This document shows, piece after piece, positions 17,243 through 36,531 of a DNA stretch of 64,000 nucleotides. Every line of letters starts with the position of its first letter. The stretch's first letter is position 1. Position numbers and translations under genes: made by a program. A model generated the notes under the pieces. That model did no database searches. It was not told where the DNA came from and was given only the letters and a program-made list of their open reading frames with translations. This stretch comes from Trichoderma breve (taxonomy: Eukaryota; Ascomycota; Sordariomycetes; Hypocreales; Hypocreaceae), in NCBI RefSeq assembly GCF_028502605.1, contig NC_079235.1, positions 3,596,001-3,660,000 of the forward strand, written 5' to 3'.

Positions 17243-17950
17243 TCAAGCCTTGGTGTCTGAGCCCTCGGCCTTGAATTTCTCTTCGCTCTCGTCGTCGCCG
17301 CTGAGAAAAATTCGGTCAGCTGAACTGTTTGAAGGCGTCTTTTTTGAAGAGGGAGGGAGAGGGAGGAACTTGGAACTATCTGCATATGTAGGAAATGGGT
17401 AGATAGATTTCACATACCTCTGGGAATCAGGCTCTTCCTTCTTCAAAGTGGCGGTTTTGTCTTCCTTCTTGGCCTTCTTGCTTGGAGTGGCCTCGAGATC
17501 GTCGTCTTCTTGATCTTCGGTGTCCTGGCCCTTGGCGACCTTCTTGGTTCGCTTCTTGGAAGGGGTGGCAGACTTGCGAGGGGTCTTGGGCTTGGTGGCG
17601 CTGGCAGGAGGAGTTGCGGTGGTGTCGCCTTCGGGGTGGCGAGCGCGGAACTCCTTCAAGATGGTCTTACTGAAGTGCTGGCTGTGTTGTTGAAGGATAT
17701 CTTTGTTAGCCTTTAGTGCTCAAAACGAGGGAGTGTAGGAACAAGGTTGGATATTGGGAGAAAATCTGAGGGGGAGTAGTCAGACTTACGACATTGCGTC
17801 CTTGGTAAAGGTGTGACCAAGACTGGTCATGATCTCCTCGACGCGAGGCCAGTTGTAGCTCTTTTTGGCGCCATCTTGGTTTGCATAAATGATGGCGACG
17901 CAGAGGTCACGCTCGGCAGAGTCATCCCACTTCTTTTCCGCAGGGGCCAT
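17243..17950 (-). CDS. Array member A: small SANT/Myb-like protein with TPRK-rich linker
   Basis: Exons 17790..17950, 17418..17681 and 17243..17300 (junctions phase 2 and phase 2) encode 160 residues. Residues 8-66 form a helix-rich Myb/SANT-like segment with tryptophans at both ends (KKWDDSAERDLCVAI, YNWPRVEEIMTSLGHTF) ending in DAMSQHFSKTILKEF. The middle is Lys/Thr-Pro rich (KTPRKSATPSKKRTKK), with a Leu-Lys-Lys-Glu SUMO-like motif, and the tail is acidic (SGDDESEEKFKAEG). The second intron (17301..17417) is 117 bp, a multiple of three without an in-frame stop, so retention would insert 39 residues. Probably nuclear, judging from composition. I recognise no characterised orthologue; the Myb/SANT call is by eye. 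Confidence 0.8.
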
Positions 17951-19114
17951 GATGGATGGATATGAGTTGTGATGTAGGGAGAAGTAGTAGAGTTGCTTAG
18001 TGGGTGGTTGGGTCTGGTACGAGTTGCAAAGAAGGCAAAGTATTGCTGCTTTGGATTCTGATGTGAAGTGAGGATGGGGGGAAGAAGAGGAGAGGTTGAG
18101 TGGAAGAGGGCTCGAGCCTACGGGATATAAGTAGGTGGTCGAGCTTGGGCAGCAGAAAAGCAGGGCGGTGTAAATTGTATTGCTCAAGACTTGTAAACTA
18201 TGTTCTCTGGTGCACAGAATCGTGATATCTCTCTTTTTGTTCACTTTGATGTCAACTGATAGTTTCTTGCTTATAGTCCCTTCAAATTATGTGTGCTCAT
18301 GCAGTGACTACGCCTAATTTTTCATCTAGTGATGCTTTAATAATGTATATGTGAGCCAACGTTGAGCTATACATGAGAATGGTGAATGCTTCCTTGGTAG
18401 CAGACGCATAGTATAGGTCAGAGTATGTTGATTCACTTTTGACAGCAAGTAGGCCGTACTACTCGCAATTCCTCGTAATAGACCATCCTTATATACTGCG
18501 TACCGATAGGAACATTGAAGAGTTTATTAGCTAGAAGTTTGGTGACTTGTGCCTGCAGGTGGTAATCCGTTCAGGATACTGCGTCCCCAACATGAAGCGT
18601 TCTGTGTTCATAGTGCCGTAAAGCGTAGATGTCTGTGGGTGTTGGCTATCAATCACTCTAATCTCATGGTAGAATGTATGATTGACTAGTACGCTGGATG
18701 GCTGCAAGCATGTAGGATAGTTGCGCCCCAGATCATTATTCAATAGATATCTCATATCAAAGTAGGCATGTTTAATACGTAGAATGCCGTTGATGGGAAG
18801 CTCCTGCAACTAAGCAGACAGCCATCTTGTGATCAGAGAGCCCATGCACACCCTGAAAGATACAGGCCACTAGTTACGAACTCAGAGAGAAATGTAGTCA
18901 AAGATCAGATTCTTGCGTTGCAGATATTTCCTGTCTAAAGAAGACGGTATATGCTTGCTTAAATGCCCATATTTTGTCCCCCGATGTAAATGCCACTCAA
19001 CCAGCTAACCCTTTCTCCAATCCTTATCCCATAACCTGCAGGGCGTCCACTAGTTTGAACCGGTATATCAAATCCCAAAAGAGTGGCATCCATCTGAATA
19101 GCTTTCAAACAAGC
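17951..19114. other. Promoter of member A and intergenic DNA
   Basis: Nearly 1.2 kb between member A and the 3' end of member B. A TATA-like stretch (ATATAA read on the plus strand) lies at 18125-18130, about 175 bp upstream of the member A start, in the same relative place as in its neighbours. The rest (about 18250-19100) is AT-rich; one 92-codon open frame on the minus strand (18531-18809) has no recognisable content. Confidence 0.5.
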
Positions 19115-19738
19115 TTAATAGTCGTCCTCGAGCTTGGGCTCGTCGTCCATCTCATCGTCCATAGTCCTATACATAGAAGTGACATTAGTGACATTCCATT
19201 TGTATTATGAAGCAGAACAAGAAGCTTTGAAAACTTACGAAGCAACAGACTTGGCGCGCTTACGAGGGCGGATGGAGGGACTACGCATTTCTTCGTCCTC
19301 AATGGCCTCCTCCAACTTGAGACTCATATCATCGTCCTCATCAATCATCTCCTTCTTGGGAGTGCGGCGCTTGCGAGGAGTTGCCGACTTGCGAGGAGTA
19401 GGAGTCTTGGCGCTTCCAGCACCAGAGTCCGTTGGGCCACCGAGAACAGTTGTATCGCGGTTCTTGCGCAATTTCTGAACATGCTGACTAGAAACACAAG
19501 GTGGGTTAGTACGAGGAGGTATTGAAGAACTGAAAAGAGAAACTGTGTACTTGATTGCGTCGTAGCTGTAGGAATAGCCCCGAGCCTGCATCTTTGCGGT
19601 GACCTCAGTCAAGAAGGCCTTGCCACCCTTGACTTCATCAATGACGCACAAGAGGAGGGCTTCATGCGCAGCGGCATCCCAGCCACGAGTAGGCTTGTTA
19701 CCAGTGGTTGAAGCGTTGGCAGACTTTGTGGCTCCCAT
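19115..19738 (-). CDS. Array member B: small SANT/Myb-like protein with TPRK-rich linker
   Basis: Exons 19551..19738, 19239..19487 and 19115..19166, both junctions in phase 2, encode 162 residues. This is the same structure as member A. The SANT-like segment spans about residues 18-73 (RGWDAAAHEALLLCVID, MQARGYSYSYDAI) and ends across the intron in NQHVQKLRKNR. The linker (TPTPRKSATPRKRRTPKK) shares the eight-residue block TPRKSATP with member A, supporting duplication. A basic patch (IRPRKRAKSVAS) is followed by an acidic tail (TMDDEMDDEPKLEDDY). Its exons 2-3 are the nearest downstream acceptors for two orphan first exons upstream at 20.0-20.8 kb. Function unknown; likely nuclear and DNA- or chromatin-associated by composition. 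Confidence 0.82.
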
Positions 19739-19899
19739 GATGATTGCAAAATAAAATGATCAAGTGGTACGAACTTGTGAAAGAGAATGGAGAGTGATGA
19801 GAAGTGAATGGACTTGGGGTGCGAGAGTTGGGATACAGGTTTGTTGAAGTAGGGTGAAATGAAGAGATGCAAGAATGTAAACAGAAAACAGCGAGCAAG

Positions 19900-19907
19900 A
19901 ATATATA
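19900..19907 (-). promoter_or_regulatory. TATA-like element of member B
   Basis: The coding strand reads CTATATATTC about 165 bp upstream of the ATG, within a pyrimidine-rich stretch. Comparable TATA-like sequences lie about 145-245 bp upstream of several other array starts. Confidence 0.45.
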
Positions 19908-20040
19908 GGTGGTAGTAGATTATTCTGCCGGTTTTTGGCTCTCCGCCAACTGGCAGTGAAGTGAAGTGAAGTGCAAGCGCATGGGGAATTCAATGTGGTC
20001 TCGGTACTAAAGAGTACAGAGGCAAATAATTCTGGCATAC

Positions 20041-20198
20041 CGAAGTGCACTTTCAGAAAAGGTGTAGCCCATCTCCTTGAGATCATTCATCACCTTTGCC
20101 CAATCCTCAGTAGATAGGGTCAAGTTGTAGAACACGGATACGAGGATATCCTCGTGAACCTGGGGGGTCCACTTCATCAACTGGCGAGAAGAAGCCAT
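20041..20198 (-). CDS. Array unit C: orphan SANT-like first exon
   Basis: A 158-nt exon (52 codons plus two bases, phase 2) from ATG 20198: MASSRQLMKWTPQVHEDILV, then EDWAKVMNDLKEMGYTF and ESAL. It aligns with the first exons of A, B, D and E and ends at the same point before a CG/GTATGC donor. No matching second exon (Gln-His motif and basic linker) exists before member B starts. Read unspliced it stops at 20007 after 63 residues; an AG 33 nt after the donor is too close for an intron. Spliced to member B's exon 2 (acceptor at 19488) it would be in frame and give ...SALRQHVQKLRKNR. So it is either a truncated copy or an alternative first exon of member B. Confidence 0.6.
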
Positions 20199-20597
20199 TC
20201 TTGGTGCTGCGGATGATGTTCGTGGAGAATTATGGATGGTGTTGAAAGGGAAAAGAAAGGTTGTAAGAGGTAAAGAATTTCGTAGAAGGTTGTGAGAGGA
20301 AGATAACGGCGGTAGATGGATAGCGAAAGTGGTGAATAGAGTTGGTAAAGATGAGGAAACTGGCGAAAGTGGAAAAGGTATAAAAGGTAGCAGAGATAGA
20401 AGGAAATAACAAGGCTTGCAAAAAGTGAATGAATTTTGAAGATGCGATTGAAGCTTGTAGAAAGGAAGGGGGTGTATAAGCAGTGTCTCCAGATATACAG
20501 CCTTGATCAAGACTGCCGAGCAGATCAAAGGAGACCATTGAAGGGGACGGACGACTATATCTAGGAGTAGCAAGGATCATAAGAAACCTAATCTTAC

Positions 20598-20815
20598 CGT
20601 ATGGCACTCCACGAGGTTACATGGCCCTGGGCGGTCATAAAGGCGACGACCGCTTCATTGGTCTGCGTATTAAAGTTGCCCGCCTGATTGCCCACCTGAT
20701 AAAAGGCGACGAGAAGATCGTTGAGCAACGCAATATTATCCCAAGTCCCAGCAGGCTTGGAAGAAGAGCCCGTGCCCGAGTCTGGGGTAGTTGCAGAAGC
20801 AGCTTCGGGAGCCAT
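20598..20815 (-). CDS. Array unit D: orphan SANT-like first exon
   Basis: A 218-nt exon (72 codons plus two bases, phase 2) from ATG 20815. A Ser/Ala-rich start (MAPEAASATTPDSGTG) is followed by GTWDNIALLNDLLVAFYQV and MTAQGHVTSWSAI. The CG/GTAAGA donor sits at the conserved position; unspliced, translation stops at the TAA inside the donor (73 residues). The 400 bp downstream have no Gln-His/basic exon in frame, only the CT-rich leader of unit C. In-frame splicing to member B's exon 2 would need an intron of about 1.1 kb, long for this window. It is a truncated copy or an alternative first exon. A TATA-like TATAAG lies at 20959-20964 on the coding strand, so it seems to have its own promoter. 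Confidence 0.58.
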
Positions 20816-20958
20816 GGTGCGTTCTTATCGGGCTGGCAATCGTACTTGTTTCTTTTCGGGGTTGGCAATCCAACTCGTTGCTTTTCGGGGCTGGTTTTCG
20901 AGGTTGGAGGTGGTAGGTTGAGCGAGAGGAGGCGATGTTTGCCGGCTGCCTGATGCAA

Positions 20959-20964
20959 CTTATA
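20959..20964 (-). promoter_or_regulatory. TATA-like element of unit D
   Basis: TATAAG on the coding strand, about 145 bp upstream of ATG 20815. It suggests transcription starts separately for this unit. Confidence 0.4.
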
Positions 20965-21644
20965 TGGCGGTTGGAAACTGGCCGACGATGGGGAATCGGA
21001 GGGCGGTGAATTGGCTTCAATGGAAGCTCACATTATGCTCGCACCCAATACATGATGCACTTATTTGGAGGCGGCTATCCAGCATTACATGTCTATTAGC
21101 ACAAAGTCATGCGATTTCACAACTCTTTCGTTTCTCTACAAGCATATTTTGTATTTGCTGAGGCGCCGAATGTACGACGAGATTCTGGATAGTCATTGCA
21201 ATCTATTAGTGTTATATCTAAGGTGTAAACCAACTGGCATAAGGGGATGAGACTTTGAGCTCCAAGTCCCCAAACATTCCTTAAACACCCGACCCAATCA
21301 TTATATATCCATCTACATCCCCAATTGCTTACCGTTCCACTCCTCATACCACTTCAATTATGTCTCTACCTAGAGATAAAGTTATAGTCCCAATGAGTCA
21401 ACTCCGCAAGAAAACGCTAATACACCTGCCAAAGGGGAAAAGTAGACAAAGGGGAACAGAGACATTCAACCAACCCGCTAAACACGCCCAAATATAGCAA
21501 ATATGCTACCTCTTCCAAATGAAATAATCATTCCATTACACAGATACTCCATTTAACGTCCAGTTTCAGATCTGACCATCTTGGAACCCAAAGCTACCGC
21601 GATCTGTTAGTATTGGCCGCAATCGTTGAAAGCACTCGTATGAC
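20965..21644. other. Intergenic between unit D and member E
   Basis: About 680 bp, AT-rich, separating the unit D promoter from the 3' end of member E. The last part may include a 10-nt terminal exon of member E (21594..21603) if the GTAAGT overlapping its stop is used as a donor. Nothing else is seen. Confidence 0.45.
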
Positions 21645-22934
21645 TTACTTTGAGGGATACGGATCTGTGCCGTCCGCGCCGTTGTGAGCGGCCAGCGCCA
21701 GCACAGCTTCGTCATCGAGAGCTGAATCTTGGCCGAGGTCGTGGGGGTCTAACCTTTGTCGCTTGGAAGGATGTTCATCTGTATCTTCTTCTTCTTCTTC
21801 CTCATCATCACCACTTTGCACAGCATCCAGTTGGAGCTGTTCTTGAGAGGTTGTCGACCCGGGTTCCGATCCAATCAGATGGTTAGAAGCGATATCATTC
21901 GGTGTCTGGGCAGAGACAGAGATGCCATCAGCATCATGCATCTCTGTTTTGAGCTGCGGCTGGAGCTGTGATTGGTGCTGCTGCATTTGTTGTTGGAAGT
22001 GGTGTTGTTGTTGCTGTTGAAATTGGTGCTGGTGTTGAGGCTGAAGTTGTTGAGCTTGAAGTTGCTGAAGTTGCTGTTGCTGAAGCTGCTGTTGTTGCTG
22101 AAGCGGCACAGCAGAAGCAGTCATAACCTGGCCGTGGCCTGGCATAGGACTGGATACGACAGCTCCGGGAAGCACCGTCGGGACAGCAGTAGAAACCGTA
22201 GAAACCGTAGAAACCGTGGTAGGTACGCCAGCAGCAAGACCAGTTGGAGAGTTATCAGCGGTATTTGCGTCAGGCTGATCGGACTCCTGGGCCTGTGACT
22301 TTCTGGGGCGTCCCCGGCCAGGCCCTGGTCTTCTAGTGATGGGATTCAAGGTTGGGTCAGCTCTTCTAGCACTTTCAGAGTGACTTCCATCCACTTCGGC
22401 CTTGTTTTGTGCTCTCCTGAGACCCTGAAAGTGTTGCCTGCGATCTTGTCAGCAAAGGGTAGATCAAGTAGAACAGAAGTAGCGTGAAGACGGAGTGTGG
22501 ATGAAGGGTATGTATATTATAGATATGTATATGTATCAGTGTAATTGGCAGAGCCTAGTGTAAGCGGGAATGGTGATGCTCAGATGTCGAGGCACGATCG
22601 ACAGCATGCCGGCATAACAGTTGGATGCGCATCTAGAGATGAGTGCATAGCCAACCGATGATGATCTTTGCACGTGATGTGCTCATTTCCATCCAGTCAA
22701 AGCCCAGATACTCGCGATAAGAAATTGAAACAGAAAAAAAAGGCACGATGCGAAAATGATGACAAGTATAAGAGACACCTACCGGCATCCTTCATTGGTG
22801 AAGCCATAGCCGAGGCCGCGCATATGATTGCCGATGGTTGTCCATTCTGCGCCACTGATAACGCCTATGTTCTTGACGGACAAGATGGTGAAGAACAGAT
22901 CTTTATCTGCCCTGTCATTCCAGTTCTTGTTCAT
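21645..22934 (-). CDS. Array member E: SANT-like protein with AT-hook and polyglutamine
   Basis: Exons 22783..22934 and 21645..22437, phase 2 junction, encode 314 residues. The SANT-like segment (KNWNDRADKDLFFTIL, GAEWTTIGNHMRGLGYGFT) ends across the intron in CRQHFQGLRRAQNK, exactly as in A and B. Then come an AT-hook-like motif (RPGPGRGRPRKSQ), three TVS repeats, a Gln/His/Leu-rich tract (about residues 150-205) and an acidic stretch (DDEEEEEDTDEHPSKRQRL). This suggests a nuclear, AT-rich-DNA-binding, possibly transcription-related protein. The intron is 345 bp, much longer than in A and B. The stop overlaps a GTAAGT; splicing there to an AG at 21604-21605 would replace the end by Lys-Ser-Arg. 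The start at 22934 is the Met nearest the conserved Trp; another in-frame Met lies upstream at 23006. Confidence 0.75.
21955..22110 (-). repeat. CAG/CAA-type polyglutamine tract in member E
   Basis: The coding strand is a run of CAG, CAA, CAC and CTG codons for a Gln-rich tract broken by Leu and His. Such tracts are length-variable by slippage and common in fungal regulators. The antisense strand is open as poly-Leu, which is an artefact. Confidence 0.85.
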
Positions 22935-25900
22935 ACCTACTATTGAAGTAATACGATGAATATGAAATAAACCGAAAGAAAGCAGCCAAATGGCAAACAA
23001 TAACACAAGCTTGAGCCAGGAAGGCGGTGGGTCGATGAGCCTCTAGGCCGGATTGTCTTGGTGACCTGCGGTGAGATAGAAGCTGTTAAGAGCAGAGGGC
23101 AATCAATGGCAAAATTGGTAGTGGAAGAATGGGGTACGGAGGTATAGCAGAGAAGGATGTTGGGGAGCCGTGGAGTAAAGGGGCCCGTGCTTAGAGGCGA
23201 CAGGATAGCCGGATTGCGGATCAACAGTTAATCCGGGCGATTGGAGCTGGGTCGGAGCTGAGCTGGAGGTGTCGGGCATGTTGTGCCATGGCGCTGAAAC
23301 ACGAGCAATGCGACGGTGGTGCAGATGCAAGTTAGGAATTTCCCTTTGAACAGCGTCTACGAAACAGTTTCTAGCTTGTCTACCGTAATTACAAGCTCTA
23401 GCGAGGCCTGAGAGCGGATTGTATCCATCTTGGAGACAACGATGCTGGGACTTAGCCGACATTGACACGGGGTTTACCCGTCAAAGTTTCATTTTAGCGG
23501 GGAACGAGAAACAGCTGAGGTACGTACAGTTTAGCATATGGTTCAAGCTGGACAATCAGCAATCGAACGATACGAAAGCGTCGGACGAAAAGTGGTGGCT
23601 CGCCATTGATGCAATTGGCCACGACGCAATGATGGAAACGGGGGAATGAGTCAAAGTCGGAGCGACATTACTAATTCGCTCCAGATAGACTAGATCTGCA
23701 CTTGATGGGGAGCTGCTGCAACAGCCTTCTGCTTCGAGTAGGGCTGGTTTGCGCTTGGTGCATGGCTCGTACATACGAGGACCTCAGATGCCTTGGAATT
23801 ACAGAGTATGGGGTACAAGGTGGGTATTCTGGGCTATTACTTGGACAAGTTTGAGGGATGAGTAAGAATGGACAAGGGGAAGATGCAGCAACAAGTTGAG
23901 ACGGACAAGGCAGTACCTCTGTACCTGAACTGCACAAGTACTCCGTGCTGGGTTGAATACTGGAAGCGGGCATCGGGACTTTGTAGCTGAAATCTAGATG
24001 TAATCCCGACGTGACCCCGGCAGCAGCCCGTGTCTCCCTCCCTTCTCAATCTCAGCCAAGCCAGCAAAAAGCAAAGGCCAATATGATAAAAGCCAAGGGA
24101 AAGCCTCAAAAAGCCCATCACGGCATCCGGACCAATAGATACGAGTACGTCATCATCCCTGGTTGGTCAGCCGCCCCTCTCGCCTCTGGTTGGTCAAGAC
24201 TGGTCACTCTTGGTCAGTGAAATGTGGAGCGGGTCTCACGTGCTTTCGCGGAAACCTGGCGACTCTCCTGGTGGCTCAGCGTCGTCGCATCCCCAAAAAT
24301 TCGCGCCCCATCGCGTCTCCCCGACGCACCTCATCCGAATCCCCTCCACGACGCCCGCGACCACTGCGACACCCGGATGCGACCATGGACACTTTTGAAA
24401 CCGGTTTCAATGAGTTTTAAATGTCGTGATTTGTTATGAAGCAAATTTTCCGCGTTTCTTCTTGTCCTCTGGTTGTGAAATTGAGTCGCGATAAAAAACA
24501 CAGTCGCTTTGGTTGCCAGAGCGCAAAAGTTCGCCCCTCTCTGCATGACACCCGCTAGCTCCGAGCAAGCACAAGGGCGGCCAGAAGAAAATGATCGGTG
24601 AGGATGGGAATGGGCTGCTCGTCGTATTTCACTACACACACGGCCATCTCGATTGAGGCAAAGGGAGCGAGCGAGCGAGAGGGTTGATGCAAGCAACCTG
24701 TAGAGCAAGTCCGTACTCGTAGATGCAGAATTGAACAATTGCATCACCATATCCCAAGGCAGCAGAAAGGTCTATCATGTCGCATATCAATCACTTAAAA
24801 AGCAAGGGGCCCTTTCTCTGCTCTTCTGAGATTTACATGCAGTCTTACAAGGGATTAAATGGCTTTGAGAACCATTGCTTGGTTGGGTCGCCGAAAGAAG
24901 CTTCTTCTATCGCAACGCCCCTCCTGAGCAATTTTGCCAGGCTACGCATTAGTGTTTGCCTCTTCGCAGTGGGAATTAGATGAGTCACACGGGGTTTCAG
25001 TCTCTCATGCCGGAAGAGGGATCCCTGTTTCCTTTCTATTTGACTTTTCTTTTTCCTATGAGTTGTCTGTGATTTGCTTGGCCGTTCGAGTTTGCTTTTT
25101 CCTTGGGTTGTAGCGATTGGAATTTGGCGGGATGGCCACTCGGTAATACTTTGTACCTACAAGGGTTTGTGGTGGCAATTCCCATCTGATCCACGCAGTT
25201 GCATACAATAAAGTTTATCCGACAGACAAAAATGAATTAAGAAGAATCAATTCATATAGACTCATTTTCTTCTTCTTCTTCCTTTTATTTGACTTTGGAT
25301 GCAAGAACCATTCATTGTTCAATGTGATGCACATCAACCCCGACTTTAGCGGTGGCTTACAGGGAGCCACACCCACTAACAGCGGCCTCTCAGCACACCC
25401 CTCAATCCCTGTTAGCGGGCGACGTCCACTTTAGGCGCTGCAGCCCCCGTCAAACCCACTGTGCTCCATCGCTATCCCTCGAGCCGGAACGGCGCCAGAT
25501 CCAGGCAACAACAGGCCCTAGGCCAGATGATATCTGGTTTGGTCTTAGACAACGCTCGGGGGGCGTCCATTCGGCATGCGGATTTCTCAGCCCGGTGGGA
25601 AGTTGGGGGAGGAAAAGGAAAGCAAAAAATGAACGAATGTAACACAGATGGACGGGGCCCGCTTGGTTCCTGGATCCTTGCAGGAGTGAGTCTATCGTGC
25701 TTGTGCCGCTAAACTGCCAGGCTGAGGCCGTTCATAAGAGAGGCCTTGCCTCCTCCTTGTTCCTGATCTCTTCCTCTCTCCTCTCTTTTCAAGATTTAGT
25801 CATCTGTGAGAGTGAGGTCGAAGCCTTGTTATTCTTCTGTTCACTTTTTCTTCCTGCCTGAGGAACTATACGAAGAAAAAGGTCCAGCCCAAGCCTCACT

Positions 25901-26185
25901 TCTGCCTCACTTGGACTTTGATCCACACATTGTTCACGGACGTTCAAGTCGCCTCCTTCCGCCCATGACCTCACCCTCTCTCGATCGGTTAATCTTTTTA
26001 TAAGTTGGTCTTGCAAATTTTCGACCGGACGACCAATCTTTTCCATCTTTCTTCCTTTCATCTTTCTCCATTTCTCTACCTTCATACCGCACATCTACTC
26101 TCAACAACCTCCTCTTCTCCCAACCGCTCTTCACTCCGACGTATCCGCCCGATATCAACTTCAGATCCAACACCAGCTCGCCATC
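22935..26185. other. Gene-free centre of the divergent SANT-like array
   Basis: About 3.25 kb between member E (transcribed left) and member F (transcribed right). It contains the E leader (about 22.9-23.5 kb), a GC-richer patch at about 24.2-24.4 kb, a short GAGC microsatellite near 24665-24680, and the pyrimidine-rich leader of F (about 25.7-26.18 kb). Open frames are short, overlapping and without family resemblance. I found no SANT-like exon on either strand. Confidence 0.55.
25999..26004 (+). promoter_or_regulatory. TATA-like element of member F
   Basis: TATAAG inside TTTTTATAAGTTGG, about 185 bp upstream of the member F start and followed by a long CT-rich leader. Confidence 0.45.
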
Positions 26186-26960
26186 ATGTCTCCTAACAGC
26201 GATAATGCCATGGCTCGCTTCTTGTTCGCCATCCTGAAGCAGAAGAACCTCAAAGATGTAGGTTCACGCTTCTCTGCCTTCGCCTGATCAAGCCTCTCTA
26301 ACCCATTCATCTCTAGATTGATTGGAGTCAAGTGGCAGCCGATCCCGTCCTCATCGAGCCCATCACCAACGGCCATGCCGCGAGAATGCGGTACTCTCGC
26401 TTCCGAGCAACCGTCACTGGCCACACACCGTCAAAGAGAGGTCGGCCATCAGAGAAGGCAAAGTCAGGCAAGGTGAAGAAGGGTGTGCAGGCAAAGAAGG
26501 AGAAGCCAATCAAGCAAGAGCCGGTCTCAGCAAACGTCTCTTCGTTCGCTCAGGTAAGACCTTCGGACACCACAGCAGCTGATACGTGTGTCTAACATTG
26601 CATCGTCAGTTTTCTCCTGAATCTCTCGCATCACTCACATCGCCTTACATGGATGAATGCGACGATTTCGACCCTCGCTTCCTCACACCCTGCAGCGAAG
26701 ACATGACTCAGGGACTGTCCATCCCTCCATCTGCTCTCGATGACATCCGACATACGAACGGATTGATGTTCCCACCTCTTGGTGGCAACTCAGACTTTTT
26801 GAGTCATGCTGGCCATGACCATACCTCTACCTCTGCGTTTGACGCCGCCTACGACCTGAACTTTGGTTCGGGAGATCTTCACAGCCAGGGCCTATCTCTC
26901 ACTGGCGGATCCCAACCGCTCGGTGACTGGGATGATCGATTGAACGACCAACAATACTAA
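26186..26960 (+). CDS. Array member F: SANT-like protein with AT-hook-like linker
   Basis: Exons 26186..26257, 26317..26553 and 26610..26960, all junctions phase 0, encode 219 residues. The N-terminal segment (NAMARFLFAILKQKNLKD, then IDWSQVAADPV and HAARMRYSRFR) is the right-arm version of the SANT-like fold; an intron falls just before IDW. The linker carries SKRGRPSEKAKSGKVKK (AT-hook-like Arg-Gly-Arg-Pro) and the SUMO-like PIKQEP. Residues about 103-219 are a Ser/Pro/Asp-rich, acidic, possibly activating region ending SQPLGDWDDRLNDQQY. This resembles proteins common in filamentous fungi annotated only as hypothetical or Myb-like. A regulatory nuclear role is inference. Confidence 0.82.
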
Positions 26961-28110
26961 GTTGGCTTTGATTTCGAGATGACGCACTACGAATACGAGA
27001 TAAAACCTACAAAAAAAGACGACGAGGGAAGTGGGGAGAGCGACAAAATTTCTTTTATGACTTGATGATACTGGCCACGATTAGTGGTTAATTGGTTTGG
27101 GCAAATCTCTTTCATCTCCAAGGAGAAGATTGGACCGGTTGGGAATCAGGGAAATCTAAAAATGATTAAGGGGGGTTTATAATGGCATGTGTATAATAGT
27201 GAGGACGAGGTGGATGAGCATATCTGTCTCTACTTTTTCTATCTTTCTCGTTCTCTTTGCTTTTTTTTTCTTTTCCTTTTTACTTCTTACTGGCTCTTAC
27301 TACCTTGCTGCCTGATACTTTTCTTTTTTCTTTTTTTTTCTTTTTCGGCTATCTTAGATACCAAGATGATATGGTAGAAACCAATACTGATTGTTGACCG
27401 CTGAACATGGCTCGCATATGCCTGTGACTTTATAATGCAAGATTTGATGCCCAATTGCGACTGACTCTTGATTTGCATTGATCTACAAGATGGTGTTGAT
27501 ATGGGCCGGTATGTTACATATTTCTCCGGTATTCTTCACAGCCATCAATATCATCTTGTGCTCCCTAATTCCGCTTCTTTCTTCATGCAAGTAGCCACAC
27601 TCGACTCATAAAGCCCCAATCGATTTTCGATACTCTCCCAGCTCAGAATATTGCATCTGCTTGCTTTATCCATTGACAGATCACTCAGTGCAGCTAGATC
27701 TTACTATCCAGTAGGCTCATAGGGAGGTGGCCTGCCAGTTGTAACAGCTGTCACCAGGGTGCCAATTCACCTGACAGTCAATGTTCCTTCGAAAGCTTTC
27801 CACCTCTTGTGGAATTCAAGAATCCTATTTTATTCACTAGCCTTGCTGCATTTCACACTTCCTTCTTCTTTTCCCTTTCAGTTTCGCACAAGCACACCCA
27901 GGCTTTCGCACCACAGCTTTTGCAAGGCACACCATCTCACCATCTATCAAGTAAGTAAATCTGTTATTCCCCCAGTGCAAAACTCGAGTAGGTATCTTCT
28001 GCTTGTGCCCTGTCTACTATTCCTCACTTCGTATGGGATCAATACTGATAATCATCCACCGACAGTTCTTCTCGCAACTAAAATTCTTGCATCGTCAAAG
28101 TGAGGCTAAA
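26961..28110. other. Intergenic between members F and G
   Basis: About 1.15 kb. It has T-rich runs at 27230-27350, probably 3' flank of F, then the G promoter with a CT-rich leader (about 27780-28000) that may contain an untranslated intron. No gene is seen. Confidence 0.5.
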
Positions 28111-28638
28111 ATGTCCGACAAACGCGAGCCAACGGCTTCTGAAGCCATGTTCTTCTTCGCCATCGTCAAGCATACCCGCAACAGAGCGGACATCGACTGG
28201 GATGCCGTTGCCCAGGAACAAGGTTTCAAGAACGCCGAAGTCGCCAAGGTTTGTCTCCCTTACCTCGAATCCGGATCTCGTTGTCTCCTTTTTCATTTCC
28301 TATTTGACTAATGACGTGTGACACAGGTTCGCTTTGGACAAGTCAGACGCAAGCTCGGCATCAGCATCGATACGGCCACCACTCCAAAGAAGGGCAGCAC
28401 TTCTTCTGCCGCCTCGACCCCAAGCAAGGTCCGCAAGACGCCCACCAGCCGCGGCAAAGGAAAAGGTAAGGGCCGCGGTGGAGTCAAGAAAGAAGAGGAG
28501 GTTGAGACTCGTGCGGGAGCTGGCATGGGAGCTCCTGGCGATGACATGGATGACATCAACCCCTTTGATTCGTCTCCCATCAAAGGAGAATCTGACAACG
28601 TCGATCTCAAGGCGGAAGACCACGAAGATCCTTTCTAA
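28111..28638 (+). CDS. Array member G: small SANT-like protein with Gly/Lys linker
   Basis: Exons 28111..28248 and 28327..28638, phase 0, encode 149 residues. SANT-like segment at about 8-60: SEAMFFFAIVKHTRNRADID, WDAVAQEQGFKNAEVAK and, after the intron, VRFGQVRRKLG. The linker is basic (KVRKTPTSRGKGKGKGRGG) with a Val-Lys-Lys-Glu motif, and the tail is acidic with Leu-Lys-Ala-Glu (NVDLKAEDHEDPF). It has the same three-part architecture as F and H. Probably nuclear. I recognise no characterised orthologue. Confidence 0.82.
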
Positions 28639-29590
28639 GCTCCAGGATGGCCAGTCTTTGGAAATTCTTGACGAGATTAGTATCTATTGCTGAGAGGATT
28701 CTACTTGTTCTTTGGGCTATACTCTACTTTCATCGAGACTGAGCAGCAATGTAGCTGAGAGATTATCTACAAGGAAGGAGCCGAGACAGCCGTCGAAGTT
28801 GAGGGAAACTATGGGATGAAGCAACAGATTATCTAGTTGATATAGGGTGACAGTCGAATGAAGTTGCTTTCAGATCTTGATCGTATCACTCATCACTCGT
28901 GGAACCCGTAGTACATTTGCATATATTCTTGCATCCAGAATCGCTTATCATGATCTTTGGATTCCTACTGCCAGATCATCTCCTAGTTATTGAGATCTCT
29001 TTTTGACGTAGATTCGGAAACATTTCTGCAACAAATTCCATTTTGAATGTTTTGACCTCTAGTTTAGGCGTTGCTTTTGTATTACTTGGGGTGAATGCCC
29101 TAAGCTCTTCAATATGCCTCTCCAGCGGCAGCACGCATACACGAAAAAACACTCTCGAGGCCAGCTTTATAAACGCCAGCCAACGTATATAAGGGTGGCC
29201 AAAAAACAAGGTGTCAAGTATTGCTCTGCCAGTGCATCATTGCGGCCACCTGGCAAGCAGCAAGTGCCAGCAGATATAAGCACCAAGCAAATTGATGCGC
29301 TGTTTGCTCTCTCTGCTTTCTCTTGATAATTGGGCTTTTGTCTCCTATAAAAAGTCGACCCTGTTTCCCCCGCAACCAAGCTTCACTCTCCTCTTCGTTT
29401 GCATCTGCATCCACCATCCACTTCTCTTCCCACACCATACTTGTTCGTCTTGTAAGACCTCAACCAGGATCTCTCGTCCAGCTTCATCGTTACAAAGCAA
29501 CAAATCAGTTCCCCCAAACACATTGTAAGATATTTCCTCTTTTGCTGCATCATCTGATACCATCTGACCACGAGCAGACCACCAACCATC
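28639..29590. other. Intergenic between members G and H
   Basis: About 950 bp. The 3' flank of G is followed by the H promoter, which has several TATA-like sequences (TTTATAAAC near 29168, TATATAAGG near 29187, CTATAAAAAG at 29345) and a CT-rich leader. The middle shows nothing recognisable. Confidence 0.5.
29346..29354 (+). promoter_or_regulatory. TATA box candidate of member H
   Basis: TATAAAAAG about 245 bp upstream of ATG 29591, followed by a CT-rich leader. It is the best TATA match in the array. Confidence 0.5.
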
Positions 29591-30004
29591 ATGCCTGCCA
29601 AGAAAGCCGACAGCTCTGACTCGCCCTCCGTCACTACTGGCTTGCGCGAGAACGAGCTTCGATTCATCAAGGCCGTCTTCGACAACATGACGCAGAAGCC
29701 TGATGCCGACTGGGGCAAAGTTGCCGGAGATTTGGGTCTCAAAGACGCCAAATGTGCCAAGGAGCGCTTCCGGCAGATGTCTGTCCGCCACGGCTGGCGT
29801 ACTGGTGCCCCTGGCAGTAGCCCCAGCAAGGCAAAGAAGAACGACGTGACTGGCCCCTCTGGCGATGGCAAGGTAACCAAGAAGCCTAAGGCGAGAACCC
29901 CCAAAAAGGCTGTGGCTAAGAAGGAGGAGAGCGAGGACGATGATATCAAGGATGAGGACGACTATCTTAAGTCGGAGGAAATGGAGGAGGGCGCCTTTTT
30001 CTAG
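29591..30004 (+). CDS. Array member H: small intronless SANT-like protein
   Basis: A single exon of 137 residues. The SANT-like segment (about 18-68) reads LRENELRFIKAVFDNM, ADWGKVAGDLGLKDAKCAKE and RFRQMSVRHGW, closely paralleling member G but without the intron. The linker is basic (VTKKPKARTPKKAVAKKEES, with a TPKK and a KKE motif) and the C-terminus strongly acidic (ESEDDDIKDEDDYLKSEE). The intronless state could mean intron loss or a retrocopy; no poly-A remnant is obvious. Nuclear location is inferred from composition. Confidence 0.85.
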   Translation: MPAKKADSSDSPSVTTGLRENELRFIKAVFDNMTQKPDADWGKVAGDLGLKDAKCAKERFRQMSVRHGWRTGAPGSSPSKAKKNDVTGPSGDGKVTKKPKARTPKKAVAKKEESEDDDIKDEDDYLKSEEMEEGAFF

Positions 30005-31323
30005 GAGAACGTACAAGACTTAAGGTGGTGGGTGTTGTTGTTGATGTGACTACCATCTAATGATCTTATGATTGGAGGGCAGTGATTATGGGATGAGAGA
30101 TATCTTGAGGCTAGGTCAGACAGGACAGTCAATTTGCAGGCGATATAGCAGTCACTTTTTTGAGGTTATATATCGAAATGGCATCCATGGATCAATGATT
30201 CTATCATGATTACTCTACTTTGTGCAGTAAAATTGCTGGTGGGTGTAATCTTGCCAACCAAGCTCGGCAAAACCTCTACTCCATCTAATGCAATGTTACG
30301 TATTTCCAGTGCCCAAGGACAAGAATCAAAGAAGCGACATTGGTAATGATTATTTCCAATTTCAATTGCCTCCATACTGTAATTATTACACAAACCAAAG
30401 CTCACTGGAACAAACCAACGGGTGAGCCTCAGGTCACCTAGACGCACCAAGAGACTTGACACTCTGCTGCCAGGTGTCCAGGTGCCAGGTTGGTTGCCCC
30501 GTTTTACAACTGGAGGGACGCCTTTGTTTTTATTTTTCGCTGCTCTGGACACCTCAGACGCGCAATTCGTTTTATTTTGTTTTCTCGGAGACATAATTTT
30601 GTTGTGTGTCGTGGACAGTTGCATCTCTTCCTTCTCCCACACAACACCTCCCATTCCGAGTTTCAACTTTCTGCACACGCTTAGCTGCAATTCTCGATTG
30701 CAATCTTTTCAAAACCCTTGAGATCATCTGTCTTGGTAATTACAACTTTTGTACTTCTTTATTTTGTTTTGTTTTCTGTTTTGATTGCATTTGGCCTGGA
30801 CACTCGTTCTTGTCTCTCCACCTGAGCCAGAAGTGAGGCGGTCACTTGTCCAATATTCACACCCCTTTCTCAGCTACATTTCCTCTACCTGTGCATTGCT
30901 GTCTTGGTGTCCACCTCTCTTTGGCTTGTGTCAAGCCTGCATCTGAACTGCCTGAGGCGTCCTCTTTTCCCCTACCTACCTCATCTCTCTTGCGTCCAAG
31001 TTTTCTCTTCGCCTCCCTTCGTTGTCCCACCACACTCTTGAGCTTTTCGATTGCCATCATCTTTCCACTTTATTGCCTGCAATACTCAATCATCAGACCT
31101 TGGCTCATCTTGCTGGTGTGTTCTTTTCTTTCCATCATCTTCCGTCTGGTTTACCCACAGTGTAGTGTCGCTCGCCATGTTCCATCATCAGCCCTCTTCG
31201 TCCCTTGCCACCCTTTCTTCGTCCCTCTCCTATCATCCCATCATTATGCCTCTTTCATCCAGACATGGCACGTGTTCCTAATCTACTTATAGTCCCAAAG
31301 CTTGCCCGACTCTTTTCAACATC
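30005..31323. other. Intergenic between members H and I with a long pyrimidine-rich leader
   Basis: About 1.3 kb. From about 30640 to 31320 the plus strand is strongly C/T-rich with few purine runs, ending in the ATG of member I. Such tracts mark fungal promoters and leaders. Open frames of 60-150 codons here are Ser/Leu/Pro-rich by-products of that composition. Confidence 0.55.
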
Positions 31324-31967
31324 ATGTCGAAGCAAGATCCCGCTGAGCAAGTTCGCTTCCTTGTGTCCTGCATTGGTCACACCACCAATGGAAGAGTAAG
31401 TCAGAAAGAGTCCTTCTTTCATACATGTCTGACTTATTTTGTAGCCTGACTTTACTCTCGTCGCTGAAGAACTTGGAATTGTTTCCAAAGCCGCTGCGTA
31501 AGTCGTTCATTTCATCTCTTGATGAACCCATCTAACCACTACCTGTTGTTCTTGAACAGCCAGAAGCGGTATGAGCGAATGCTCAAAGCCAACGGAGTGA
31601 ATGCCTCCAAGCCGGCCGCTAAATCCAGCGCTGATGATGAAAACACTCCTTCCACCCCGGTGAAGCGCAAGACCACTGGAGTTGCTAGAGGCAGCGCCCA
31701 AAAGAAGTCCAGGGCTGCCAAGAAGGAAGAAAGCGATGACGAGATGAAGGACACGAAGCCGACTCCCAAGGGCAGGGCCAGAGTTCCCAAGAAGGAGCCT
31801 AAGAAGGAGCCAAAGAAGGAGCCAAAGGAAGAGTGCGACTCTTCTCTCTCCGGTATGTTGCCGGCATGATCTTGTAATTCTAAATGACCTGGATGATCTG
31901 ACTCTGAATCTTAGATGCTCCCGATTCCGGCCATTCTGATGCTGGCACTAGCTTTGATTCTGTCTAA
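31324..31967 (+). CDS. Array member I: small SANT-like protein with KKEP repeats
   Basis: Exons 31324..31395, 31445..31497, 31560..31852 and 31915..31967 (phases 0, 2, 1) encode 156 residues. The first exon is exactly 24 codons in phase 0, as in member F. SANT-like segment: EQVRFLVSCIGHTTNGR, PDFTLVAEELGIVSKAAA, QKRYERMLKANG. The linker is basic (TPVKRKTTGVARG, KKSRAAKKEES) and contains three KKEP units in a row at about residues 119-130. The tail is short and acidic or Ser-rich (DAPDSGHSDAGTSFDSV). If the last intron is kept, translation stops soon after it (GMLPA). Probably nuclear. No known orthologue recognised. Confidence 0.8.
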
Positions 31968-32979
31968 GCTCTTGCAGCCTCACTCTCCGGCTGCACTTCA
32001 AGCCATGATGAACATTGTAATGCCATGTTCGTTTCCTCGGCACTATATAGGAAGTAGCTCCCGGAGATTTGAGACGATGAGTACATCGTAGTTTGGGATT
32101 TGGCATATGAGGCAGGGCATTTGCCTGAACATTTGGTTCAATATGGACATGCTAGGGATATTGAGTCTTCAATTGAGATGGCTATCATAGCAATTCAGAT
32201 ATTCTGTGAATTCACTTAGCTTAGTTTAATCCAGGGTCTACGGCGGAATATCACCAAACGGGCACCAATGATGTGCATTTTCCCTTTCTCGTTTGACTTC
32301 AACCACGGCTACGATAACATCACCTCCAGATCAAATAATGATCAAGTTTTCCAAATGCTTAAATCCTTGTCTGCACTGTAGCGAATGTCGGAGCCCGCTT
32401 CTCTCCACTGGCAGCCCGCCAAGCCCACTCGTGATTCACTGTCACTTCAGACTCAGCAAACACCGACTCTCAGACTCCAATAGGCAGGGTAGTAATCCTA
32501 TTGGGGTCCCATTGTATTCATACCGCCTCAAATAGTCACTTTTCAGAACTGATAGCAGCTGACAAAAAGAGACGTACCCTTACTCCAGGGAGGGGAAGGG
32601 GGGAGGACCCGCAAACGCAATGCAGCAGCTGCTGAATGGAATCTGTAGCTATTGTCACATTGTCACCAGCAAGATGGTATTGGGGACAATACACCAGAAA
32701 ACTGACACTCAGTTCATTATCACCACAATTAGATGCTTGTTGTATTCTAGCAATCGGAATATCTCGTGCTTCTGCTGATACTAAAACCTCTTCCCTCCTC
32801 GCCACCATTGCTTTTCTAGTATCTCATCACAACATCGAAGCTTCTTCTACAAAGCAAGCTGATCTCTTCTTTATCAATCCCGAATATTCTCATCCAAGCC
32901 CAATCCATCAGTTGATCCTCTTACACGAGAGCGAACATCATCTCGAGAGCTTCCAATCATCACGTCTTGCCAATCCATC
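31968..32979. other. Intergenic between member I and the coiled-coil gene
   Basis: About 1 kb. AT-rich 3' flank, then a CT/CA-rich leader (about 32770-32970). No gene recognised. Confidence 0.5.
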
Positions 32980-33978
32980 ATGTCTGGAACAGCTTCCTTC
33001 TCCAACGCAGGCATCGAGATACAATATCTCAACCAATCAGCTATCCCACGCTCGCCTTACACGCAAAAGATGAATCCCATCTTCGCCGGTCTTATTACAC
33101 CCCCTGAATCTCCCATTCGATACGTTCAGCGGAACTCTCTTGATACCACCGCAGCTCAGTCACCAGCTCTCTCTCCGGCTCTGAGCTCTACGAACGAAGT
33201 CCAAAAGGCTGTGGAAGCTTTGTCTGTTGCTATCAGAAATGCAAGCGCTGAGCAAGATGCCAATTTCACCAAAGTACCATCGACACCCGTGACTCCTGTC
33301 GACTTCGATAACATTCGCGAGGTTATCTACTCAATCGTCGAGAACACAGTAGAGGAGAAGATGGCCGATGCCATTGGTCCTCTGCGATTGAACATCGGCA
33401 AGCTTGACGACTCTCTTGAGTTTATTCGTCACCGAGAAAATGCTCTGAATGATCTGGAATCACATCTCCGCCGCGAGCATACTGACATACGGGATCAAAA
33501 CGACACAATGAGCCGTCAGCTTGATCTTCACTACCGCACTGTTGAACAACACGTCGAGGAATTCAGATCCCAATCCAAGACTATAAACACCATAATCGGA
33601 GCTCAGGCTGACAATGTTGCCGCCAGCATTAACATGGTCAACCACCTCTCCCAAGTTGTCACCAATCTACCCCTTGCTATCAACCAAGTCGTCCACAATG
33701 CAGTTCAACAACAGACTCAGCTGGCTATTCGAGACATTATGTTTGCTCAACAACAAGCCATGTTCTCCGTCTCAGATGTTTCCAGAACTCGGCAGTCAGT
33801 GTCTAGTGATGGCGTCTCCAGTCAATGCACTTGCAACCACCATTGCTTGGAGATTGAGTCTATGGCATCAACGCAACATGGCAGTGGCTCACTCAAGCAT
33901 ATTTCTCCCAATACTTCCTCCAAGTCAAATCGCAGCTTCAGGTATGCATTGCGGAGGTTATTCGGGTCTAACAAGTAA
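32980..33978 (+). CDS. Coiled-coil protein of unknown function within the array
   Basis: A single exon of 332 residues, start at MSGTASFSNAGIEIQYL. Residues 1-100 are Ser/Pro-rich (GLITPPESPIRYV, QSPALSPALSS). Residues about 105-265 are predicted helical or coiled coil (EVIYSIVENTVEEKMADAIG, EFIRHRENALNDLESHLRRE, QLDLHYRTVEQHVEEF). The C-terminus is Ser-rich with a Cys/His cluster (SSQCTCNHHCLEIE) and ends in a basic stretch (SFRYALRRLFGSNK). It lacks the Trp/Gln-His SANT-like signature and the TPKK linker, so it is not evidently a member of the surrounding family. Function not recognised. Confidence 0.78.
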   Translation: MSGTASFSNAGIEIQYLNQSAIPRSPYTQKMNPIFAGLITPPESPIRYVQRNSLDTTAAQSPALSPALSSTNEVQKAVEALSVAIRNASAEQDANFTKVPSTPVTPVDFDNIREVIYSIVENTVEEKMADAIGPLRLNIGKLDDSLEFIRHRENALNDLESHLRREHTDIRDQNDTMSRQLDLHYRTVEQHVEEFRSQSKTINTIIGAQADNVAASINMVNHLSQVVTNLPLAINQVVHNAVQQQTQLAIRDIMFAQQQAMFSVSDVSRTRQSVSSDGVSSQCTCNHHCLEIESMASTQHGSGSLKHISPNTSSKSNRSFRYALRRLFGSNK

Positions 33979-34905
33979 CTTCAATGCTGCGATGGGTTGA
34001 GCTGAGAATTTCTTGGTATGGTAAAAGCATCTTGGGGGCAAGTGGGTAGAGGATTGTTGTTTTCTGGGTTACGGCGCAAAGGGGTTACTTTGGAATGATA
34101 CTGATGTAGATTATGTCTTCAATCCAACCTTGCTCGCATGCTATCTCTACTTCTTTGCCCAGAGCTTCCAGTGATGATGGTATTGACAAACAGGTACCTA
34201 CACACATGTACATCTGTGCAAGTCCCCAACGGCCACCACCAAGCTGCAAATCCCCCTTAACAGCACACAACACCAAGCAGTAAATCAACAGTTATAGAAA
34301 TTGTATATTATATATCTCTTTCTTCATTTATACGATGCCCAATTGCATTGCTACTAATTCGCATAGACGAGAGAGATGCTGCGTCTATCTGACAGTTCCC
34401 AAGTTCCCCCAACCACCCCCGACTTTGCTGCCAGCTGCCAGACAGACAATCCACCCAGACTGGCCAAGTTTTCTGAATTTCTGAAATTTCTGAAATGCAA
34501 AACTTTGCATTTCCCTTTTGGGAAGATTTGGCTCACTTTTGTCTTTTCTCCCACTTTTTCCCGTTCCTCGCTACTCTTCTTTCTTTCTCCCCAACATCGC
34601 GAGTCTACTAACCACAGCAGCACCAACGTTTACGACCAATTCATCTTTTGCAACAACGCATACAACGAATCAATTGACTGTAAGTGACTATTTTCTGCTT
34701 TTCAATGCTTCAATTGGCAATTTTCTGCTGTTTTGCAGCAGTAATTGGACCTTGAGCAGCACAATTCCTCCAAGTTTCTTACCTCTTTCTCTACTCCCAT
34801 TCCCCATCTCCAACACATATATGCCTTCCAATGCAGCACTAACAAGCATTTTTTTAACCAATTAGGCTTCAATTCATTGCCAATTGTCTTCTTCATACCT
34901 TCAAG
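33979..34905. other. Intergenic between the coiled-coil gene and member K
   Basis: About 930 bp. AT-rich with a TATATTATATATC stretch near 34305, then a T/C-rich leader for member K (about 34520-34900) in which an untranslated intron is possible. Nothing else recognised. Confidence 0.5.
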
Positions 34906-36531
34906 ATGGGCACTCCAGGTCTGAAGACTACTCCCAAGAAGAGCCAGACTGCGGCTCATGACCACCGCACTCCTTCCAAGGTGATGAAAGCTCAGAGGAC
35001 CCCCAAGGTCAACAAGCTCAAGACACCTGGTTCCACTCCCAGAGAGACTGCTTACACTCATAACCTCCCCACTGGCGAGCAGAAGAAGGGCAATGGCCGT
35101 GTCACTGGACGCAGCCTCATCATGTGGAACCGTAAGATAATTGCACATCACAATCCCTTTGCTCAATTGACTTCTTCATGAACACTTGCACTAACTCTTC
35201 GACAGGTCCTCGCATGACTGAGAAGCTTCTTCTCCACATTCACTACGAATGTGTTCGTCACAAGGTCAACATTCCTTGGGATGCCATTTCTCATCGCCTT
35301 CGCCCCGGCTCTTCTGGTCAGGCAATTCTGCAGCATGTCAACCGCCTTCGCAAGGAACTCCTCGCTGAAGGCCACATGGTGCCTCCCCCTGCCCACAAGA
35401 ACTCTCCATCTACTCCCTATGATCCCACCGTCAGAGGCTACGTCCGTGACCCTACTAGCGATGACAAGCATGCCACTCGCTCAGTTGGTTTCGACGAGAA
35501 GCTGGATGATGCCAAGATCAACCTTCCCGATGCCTTTGACGCTATGGACGAAGGTGAAGACGAGTTCTCCCCTGAAGCCTATGGCGACGTGCTCTGCACT
35601 CCTGAGGCCGATGCCGATGTCATTGTCCTTGAGGACGATATCCCACTCCCAGTCACGCCGACTCCCGTCCGTCACGCAGCGCCTCGCCCCCCTGTGTCTG
35701 CTTCTGCCACTCAGTACAACCTGAAGGCCCAGAGCATTCAGCAAGACAACGTCGCTGCTACTCAACAGCTTGACCTCTTTGACAACAACCTATTCGCTGA
35801 CATCACCCCTCCCAACTTTGTGCTCAACAGCACTGAGGTAAGTTGACTCTCCCACTATCATCGCCTATTGACTTCACATACTAACAGAGAACAGGGACTT
35901 CAGCCTATGGGTGTCCAGAACCCTATCGCTTTTACCAATGAAGCTCAGCTTTTGATGGGCGGAGCCAACTTGTTTGACCCTTTTACCACCCAGCCTCTCA
36001 TCAAGCCCAGCCATGAGCAGATTAGCCCCTGCGGTCAATCACCTCTTGGCAATGTCTCTCAGCCCTTCTTCATGGGAAACCCATTTAACCTTCAATCCGG
36101 TGGCTACTACACCAACTTGGCTCAGCCTAACTTCATGGCCCAGCCTAGCCTCATGGCTCAGCCTAACCTCATGGCCCAACCTCCTTTTGGCTTCGCCATG
36201 CCGCCCACTCCTCCTGCTCTTTTCAACCCTGAGGAGAAGGAAGAACCCCAGAGCTCCCCAGCTGCCAACGAACACAGAGGCATCTCCGTCTCGCCTGTGT
36301 CGTCCCCAGTTGCAGCCCAGCTGCCTACATTCCAGCCAGAGACACTCCAGCCGGAGATTGAGAGCCCAGAGCAGCAGCTCGGCGAGGCCACTGTAAGTAT
36401 TTGCCTTTCTTCCATCTCCTCTCCTACAATCGTCACGAGAACTAGACTGACGATTGAAGCCTGCACTCCCATTTTCCGACGACTTTGTCGGCCACCAGTT
36501 GTTGCTTGAGTTCCTCGCCAACTCGGAGTAA
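34906..36531 (+). CDS. Array member K: larger SANT-like protein with MAQP repeats
   Basis: Exons 34906..35131, 35206..35837, 35895..36392 and 36460..36531 (phases 1, 0, 0) encode 475 residues. The N-terminus is a basic TP-rich region (TTPKKSQTAAHDHRTPSK, AQRTPKVNKLKTPGSTP). The SANT-like segment (about 76-135) follows: TEKLLLHIHYECVRHKVNIP, WDAISHRLRPGSSGQAI and LQHVNRLRKELLAEGHMVPP. It has the same Gln-His-x-x-(Lys/Arg)-Leu end as the left-arm genes, though the basic region precedes the domain instead of following it. The rest is acidic and Pro/Gln-rich, with four six-residue repeats (FMAQPS type), and ends FVGHQLLLEFLANSE. This form, with IPWDAI and RPGSSG, is the kind I recall as widely conserved in filamentous fungi and unannotated. 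It may be a transcription regulator; this is inference. Confidence 0.82.
36117..36188 (+). repeat. 18-bp tandem repeat, four copies, in member K
   Basis: Four consecutive 18-bp units encode LAQPNF, MAQPSL, MAQPNL and MAQPPF. It is a small coding minisatellite likely to vary in copy number between strains. Confidence 0.88.

Follow-up and report, generated by a model that had tools for sequence, protein, structure and literature searches.

One gene with three candidate first exons in a divergent SANT-like gene array of Trichoderma breve

How many genes are encoded by an array of ten small SANT/Myb-like segments in the fungus Trichoderma breve, and is that array a recent radiation or an old locus? 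The array lies within a stretch of 64,000 nucleotides (C4:3596001-3660000, on contig NC_079235.1; hereafter the window) that had previously been described from its letters alone, in what is termed here the sequence-only reading, as harboring about ten fast-evolving genes. Gene models for the array, built from reading frames and GT-AG introns, confirmed that ten SANT-like first segments (M1 to M10) are present at the positions originally claimed, and that the left-arm members are all on the minus strand and the right-arm members all on the plus strand. They also support the view of one divergent array whose small proteins are Myb/SANT-like, have basic linkers and end in acidic tails. The count of ten genes stood only in part: M1, M2 and M5 to M10 give eight complete proteins, and M3 and M4 are incomplete, lacking both helix 3 and a second exon of their own. 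The ten apparent genes are thus likely to be eight, because three of them (M2, M3 and M4) are conserved start exons that are apparently joined to one common ending. The sequence-only reading had missed the resemblance of these three to alternative first exons within a single gene; we place the probability that they are such exons, with predicted splicing of each to one shared downstream exon, at roughly three in four.

Three tandem candidate first exons and a putative common ending

M4, M3 and M2 lie in tandem on the minus strand. Each begins with an ATG and closes with a GT donor in phase 2, which interrupts the domain at an equivalent position in all three. M4 (20598..20815, donor GTAAGA) and M3 (20041..20198, donor GTATGC), both candidate alternative first exons encoding helices 1 and 2, stop at that donor just before the expected start of helix 3. 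The third candidate, exon 1 of M2 (19551..19738, donor GTACAC), is followed by a 63-nucleotide intron (19488..19550) with the branch point ACTAAC, and then by the putative common exon (19239..19487), which encodes helix 3 (QHVQKLRKNRD), a TP-K linker and an acidic tail containing LKLE; in the gene model, the end of the acidic tail is supplied by a last common exon (19115..19166). Predicted splicing of M4, M3 and M2 to the common and last exons yields proteins of 172, 152 and 162 amino acids, respectively, in which QHVQKLRKNRD is preceded by either R or N. M3, M4 and the common exon were each recovered once in genome searches, which covered nine contigs and 38.5 Mb.

The splice signals of this interval point in the same direction. 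Across the approximately 1.1 kb that separate the M4 donor from the common acceptor, the branch point of the M2-common intron is the only occurrence of CTRAY (shuffled sequence would give 5.65; P(<=1) 0.019), and the branch consensus accompanies a single one of 33 [ACT]AG sites, namely the common acceptor. As a control, the modelled introns of the array were checked for CTRAY, and all 15, among them the M2-common intron, have it within their last 60 nucleotides. No private exon 2 for M3 or M4 was found among the downstream AGs by the branch-consensus criterion, and neither M3 nor M2 displays an upstream acceptor with branch consensus in T. breve; by this criterion of sequence, M3 and M4 would therefore have no other splice target, and M3 and M2 would not be internal exons. 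For M4, 42 AGs were considered as private candidates, and for M3, 22. Several of these lead into frames that stay open for longer than the one behind the common acceptor, and none of those bears the branch consensus; one such exon for M3 (ending at 19949, in the WRRAKNR frame) was dropped for lack of that signal.

The 150 nucleotides preceding the start codons of M2 and M3 are rich in pyrimidines (fractions of 0.72 and 0.69, respectively, against a window mean of 0.50 and a 90th percentile of 0.61), which fits the presence of separate promoters at these two exons. In the mechanism that we propose, each first exon would have its own promoter, and the start site used would decide which of three pairs of helices 1 and 2 is fitted onto one constant helix 3 and tail. 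The common helix 3 would then keep the DNA contact constant, the variable helices would change partner or site preference, and the TP-K linker and acidic tail, with its SUMO-consensus motif, might anchor the protein to chromatin or control it there.

Gene models of relatives

Additional evidence on the junctions was drawn from public gene models, using a homologue set of 289 proteins (two of its searches contributed 120 of 594 and 120 of 369 matches) in which exon types were counted by regular expression. M2-type exons were found 56 times and were joined to the common exon in 54 of those instances. Among 54 M3-type exons, 14 run directly into QH[VI]QKL, 20 continue into Y[ADEGV], one ends at that point and 19 display other joins. 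The 14 direct M3-common models come from 13 species in nine genera of Hypocreales (Trichoderma, Cladobotryum, Fusarium, Neonectria, Cylindrodendrum, Purpureocillium, Ophiocordyceps, Trichothecium and Amphichorda), and the 20 that continue with Y[ADEGV] are those expected from read-through of a CG|GTA(T/C)G donor. For M4-type exons (29 instances) a single direct join to the common exon was counted (P0157), with one model ending there and 27 joined otherwise; an additional direct M4-common join is present in a partial model, P0135. In each of two species, F. proliferatum and P. lilacinum, different first exons (39% and 26% alike, respectively) are annotated ahead of the same common part (97% and 100%).

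One model from Purpureocillium lavendulum (P0271), annotated as a 'C-myc promoter-binding protein', consists of M3, M2 with the common exon, and M1 run together; to judge from its composition, that name looks wrong.

Age and conservation of the array

The sequence-only reading had further proposed that the array reflects a local radiation, perhaps under diversifying selection, of fast-evolving members. A tree of 87 first-exon segments, which is rough since it was built on 49 columns, separated each of M1 to M5 from the rest by a branch, with sequences of different genera grouped together, and with supports of 89/80 for M2, 88/94 for M3, 100/99 for M4 and 99/90 for M5, and with weak support (21/86) for the M1 clade. 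M3 and M4 have kept their frame, their domain residues and their exon end across genera of Hypocreales. The M5 segment is nearly invariant, differing at one of 49 residues between T. breve and Xylaria, and among the matches listed it was also found in Canariomyces, Pyricularia and Colletotrichum.

Using locus-tag numbers as a proxy for gene order, 28 assemblies were entered into a comparison of the neighbourhood. Members of the left and right arms lie no more than seven tag numbers apart in 22 of them; of the remainder, three contain right-arm members only (including Trichoderma sp. CBMAI-0020, with a span of 18), two contain left-arm members only, and in one T. viride assembly the set is split over two places. 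A recent radiation or diversifying selection was rejected on the basis of the old clades and the kept neighbourhood, and the near invariance of M5 runs counter to the claim that every member is evolving fast. The array is an old and conserved locus of Hypocreales.

Domain families and predicted fold

According to the sequence-only reading, only pattern and gene structure tie the members together. That statement is too strong: M6, M7 and M9 score 37.7, 30.9 and 75.5 bits, respectively, against the family PF22980 (Myb_DNA-bind_8), and thereby pass its curated cut-off of 27 bits. M8 falls below that threshold (19.0 bits), and M1 to M5 and M10 returned no PF22980 match when the ten members were examined with hmmscan. 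No mention of PF22980 or of Myb_DNA-bind_8 was found in the open-licence collection of papers searched. The classical Myb repeat, PF00249, has 19 matches in the genome, with none in the window and none in the hmmscan of the ten members. Genome searches with PF22980, M5, M3 plus common, M4 plus common and M10 (the other members were not searched singly) produced one match beyond the window, on another contig, obtained with PF22980 at an E-value of 0.58.

The two arms are related by profile, and their resemblance is above chance: profile-profile comparison gave a probability of 82 with full alignments. When restricted to the domains it gave 55, while none of 60 column-shuffled controls exceeded 3.6. 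M6 belongs with its own arm (probability 95.9 to the right arm, 15.0 to the left). M10 shows the reverse, with a probability of 55.6 to the left arm (at most 4.3 in 60 shuffles) and 1.6 to the right. The left-arm domain also returned a weak, non-significant profile match (E 0.057) to the plant DNA-binding trihelix protein GT-1 (PDB 2ebi).

An AlphaFold model of P0153, in which M3 is joined to the common exon, contains helices at residues 12-25, 30-42 and 49-71, with the exon junction at 53/54; the predicted domain is thus one of three helices, and the two exons would meet close to where helix 3 begins.

Alternative explanations

Several observations weigh against a gene with three alternative first exons. 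The predicted M3-common and M4-common introns, at 553 and 1,110 nucleotides, are long beside the 49-345 of 15 other modelled introns, and the leader of M4 is not rich in pyrimidines (0.49), leaving a promoter of its own unsupported. Direct joins are lacking in 40 of the 54 M3 instances and 28 of the 29 M4 instances, and several models (P0244, P0246 and P0260) join M4 just before the start of M3. The public gene models that show the junctions may be no more than ab initio predictions. Since a gene finder usually reports a single isoform for each locus, disagreeing models are to be expected from a locus with variable first exons; the same disagreement might also be produced by an ab initio program facing three competing exons. 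Finally, the P0153 model is middling (mean predicted local distance difference test score, pLDDT, of 61 and predicted template modelling score of 0.31, with pLDDT of about 76-88 over residues 11-60), and no significant structural match was found for it.

Three other explanations of the same exons were considered. M4, M3 and M2 could be serial exons of one messenger RNA, whose protein would carry two or three SANT-like segments and finish with the common exon, as is depicted in fused models (P0127, P0151, P0241, P0243, P0244, P0246, P0256, P0259 and others). The fused junctions, however, vary from model to model, whereas the M3-common junction is identical in 14; M4 and M3 would moreover be left without a third helix, and the lack of upstream acceptors with branch consensus at M3 and M2 argues against internal positions, such that this arrangement appears unlikely. 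M3 and M4 might instead be relics, or encode short truncated proteins without helix 3, with M2 alone a working gene. The predominance of M2 joined to the common exon in public models would agree with this, as would the early stop that is reached when M3 is left unspliced, but the conserved frame, residues and exon ends of both exons, together with the 14 models in which M3 is spliced to the common exon, make it decidedly improbable. The original reading, of approximately ten independent and rapidly diversifying genes, draws on the ten segments in two arms and on their low identity to M1 (14-30%). No exon 2 was found for M3 or M4, however, and this reading is at odds with a set that stays together, with clades that are old and with a nearly unchanging M5; it now seems very improbable. 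Alternative first exons of a single gene, which would leave M1 and M5 to M10 as relatives of the M4-M3-M2 gene, remain the preferred explanation.

Relation to known systems

The best-known arrays with variable first exons are those of animals; the protocadherin clusters and the UGT1A locus of vertebrates carry tandem homologous first exons upstream of one constant set of exons. The M4-M3-M2 region resembles these in that homologous exons, all with their own start codon and donor, stand in a row before one constant exon. It differs in having three such exons only, in occurring in a fungus, in being known here from sequence and gene models, and in the position of the junction, which would split a three-helix domain of DNA-binding type so that helices 1 and 2 vary and helix 3 is constant. 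We lean, by a narrow measure, toward the fuller view of a miniature protocadherin-style locus of Hypocreales, in which three promoters would serve three helix pairs and one constant recognition helix with a SUMO-consensus tail, a DNA- or nucleosome-binding face would be swapped with the DNA-reading helix unchanged, and the set would have been kept since before the families of Hypocreales split.

Another related case is Xlr2 of Trichoderma virens, in which a microexon switch is reported to alter the DNA-binding domain of a regulator (PMC11121469). The likeness lies in the use of alternative exons to change the DNA-binding domain of a Trichoderma regulator; the difference is that one microexon is included or skipped there, rather than a choice being made among homologous first exons (PMC11121469). 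No fungal locus with variable first exons, and no such locus under fungal Myb/SANT gene clusters, was found among the titles and abstract openings listed by searches of an open-licence collection, outside which most subscription journals lie.

The most interesting part of the array is this likely gene with variable first exons, which would swap two helices of a SANT-like domain, and a vague 'fast-evolving family' is thereby narrowed to a specific proposal on one locus. If correct, the proposal would provide a compact and genetically tractable fungal model of protein diversity through promoter choice, and would explain why public fungal gene models at the locus disagree (fused, truncated or limited to a single isoform).

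Tails, linkers and the SUMO-consensus motif

Linkers of the form T/SP-K are present in seven of the eight tails examined, M5 being the exception. The SUMO consensus, psi-K-x-E, occurs ten times in the eight tails where 0.88 would be expected (none of 10,000 shuffles was as high), and nine times in six tails under local shuffling, against 0.93 (none of 5,000 as high); the shuffles exclude composition as the source of this excess. The T. breve M9 and M10 tails contain no psi-K-x-E. Among relatives, the motif is present in 76 of 77 common tails, 24 of 26 for M1, 38 of 38 for M7, 44 of 48 for M9 and 26 of 32 for M8, and in only two of 35 for M5. Control motifs were rarer: psi-R-x-E and psi-E-x-K reached at most 0.05 per tail, psi-K-x-D up to 0.22 and the reversed motif up to 0.38. 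The related pattern [AGST]KxE is also common, at 0.46-1.29 per tail outside M5 (in M9 relatives its 1.29 exceeds the 1.15 of psi-K-x-E), so that part of the signal may reflect a general K-x-E habit.

In the tails of M1, M2/common, M6, M7 and M8, psi-K-x-E stands beside acidic runs, though the domains of these proteins differ; this shared feature suggests that the proteins of the array may be regulated in common.

The remaining members and their surroundings

M1 and M5 to M10 are seven separately spliced relatives of the M4-M3-M2 gene. On the minus strand, M1 (17243..17950; exons 17790-17950, 17418-17681 and 17243-17300) has its own QHF exon, and its spliced protein is 100% identical to T. breve T069G_07350; the glutamine-rich M5 (21566..22934) comprises exons 22783-22934, 21649-22437 and 21566-21593, the last of which was placed by hand. 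On the plus strand, the PF22980 members are M6 (26186..26960; exons 26186-26257, 26317-26553 and 26610-26960), M7 (28111..28638; exons 28111-28248 and 28327-28638) and M9 (31324..31968; exons 31324-31395, 31445-31497, 31560-31852 and 31915-31968), accompanied by the single-exon M8 (29591..30004). M10 (34906..36531; exons 34906-35131, 35206-35837, 35895-36392 and 36460-36531) completes the right arm with a domain that resembles the left.

Between the two arms, approximately 3.2 kb (22935-26185) carry no gene model; this interval is possibly a divergent regulatory region common to M5 and M6. Between M9 and M10 lies a single-exon open reading frame of 332 amino acids (32980-33978, plus strand) with a coiled-coil look, unrelated to the SANT-like genes, which has no Pfam match and was found once in the genome. 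The array is flanked, as the sequence-only reading had indicated, by housekeeping genes, for a GYF-domain protein, UFD1, Cpn60 (HSP60) and Sec7. Elsewhere in the window, an open reading frame of 729 amino acids (2103-4292, plus strand) consists of repeated coiled-coil units (LEKSLS... repeats), for which the only Pfam-type match is the Pox_A_type_inc repeat.

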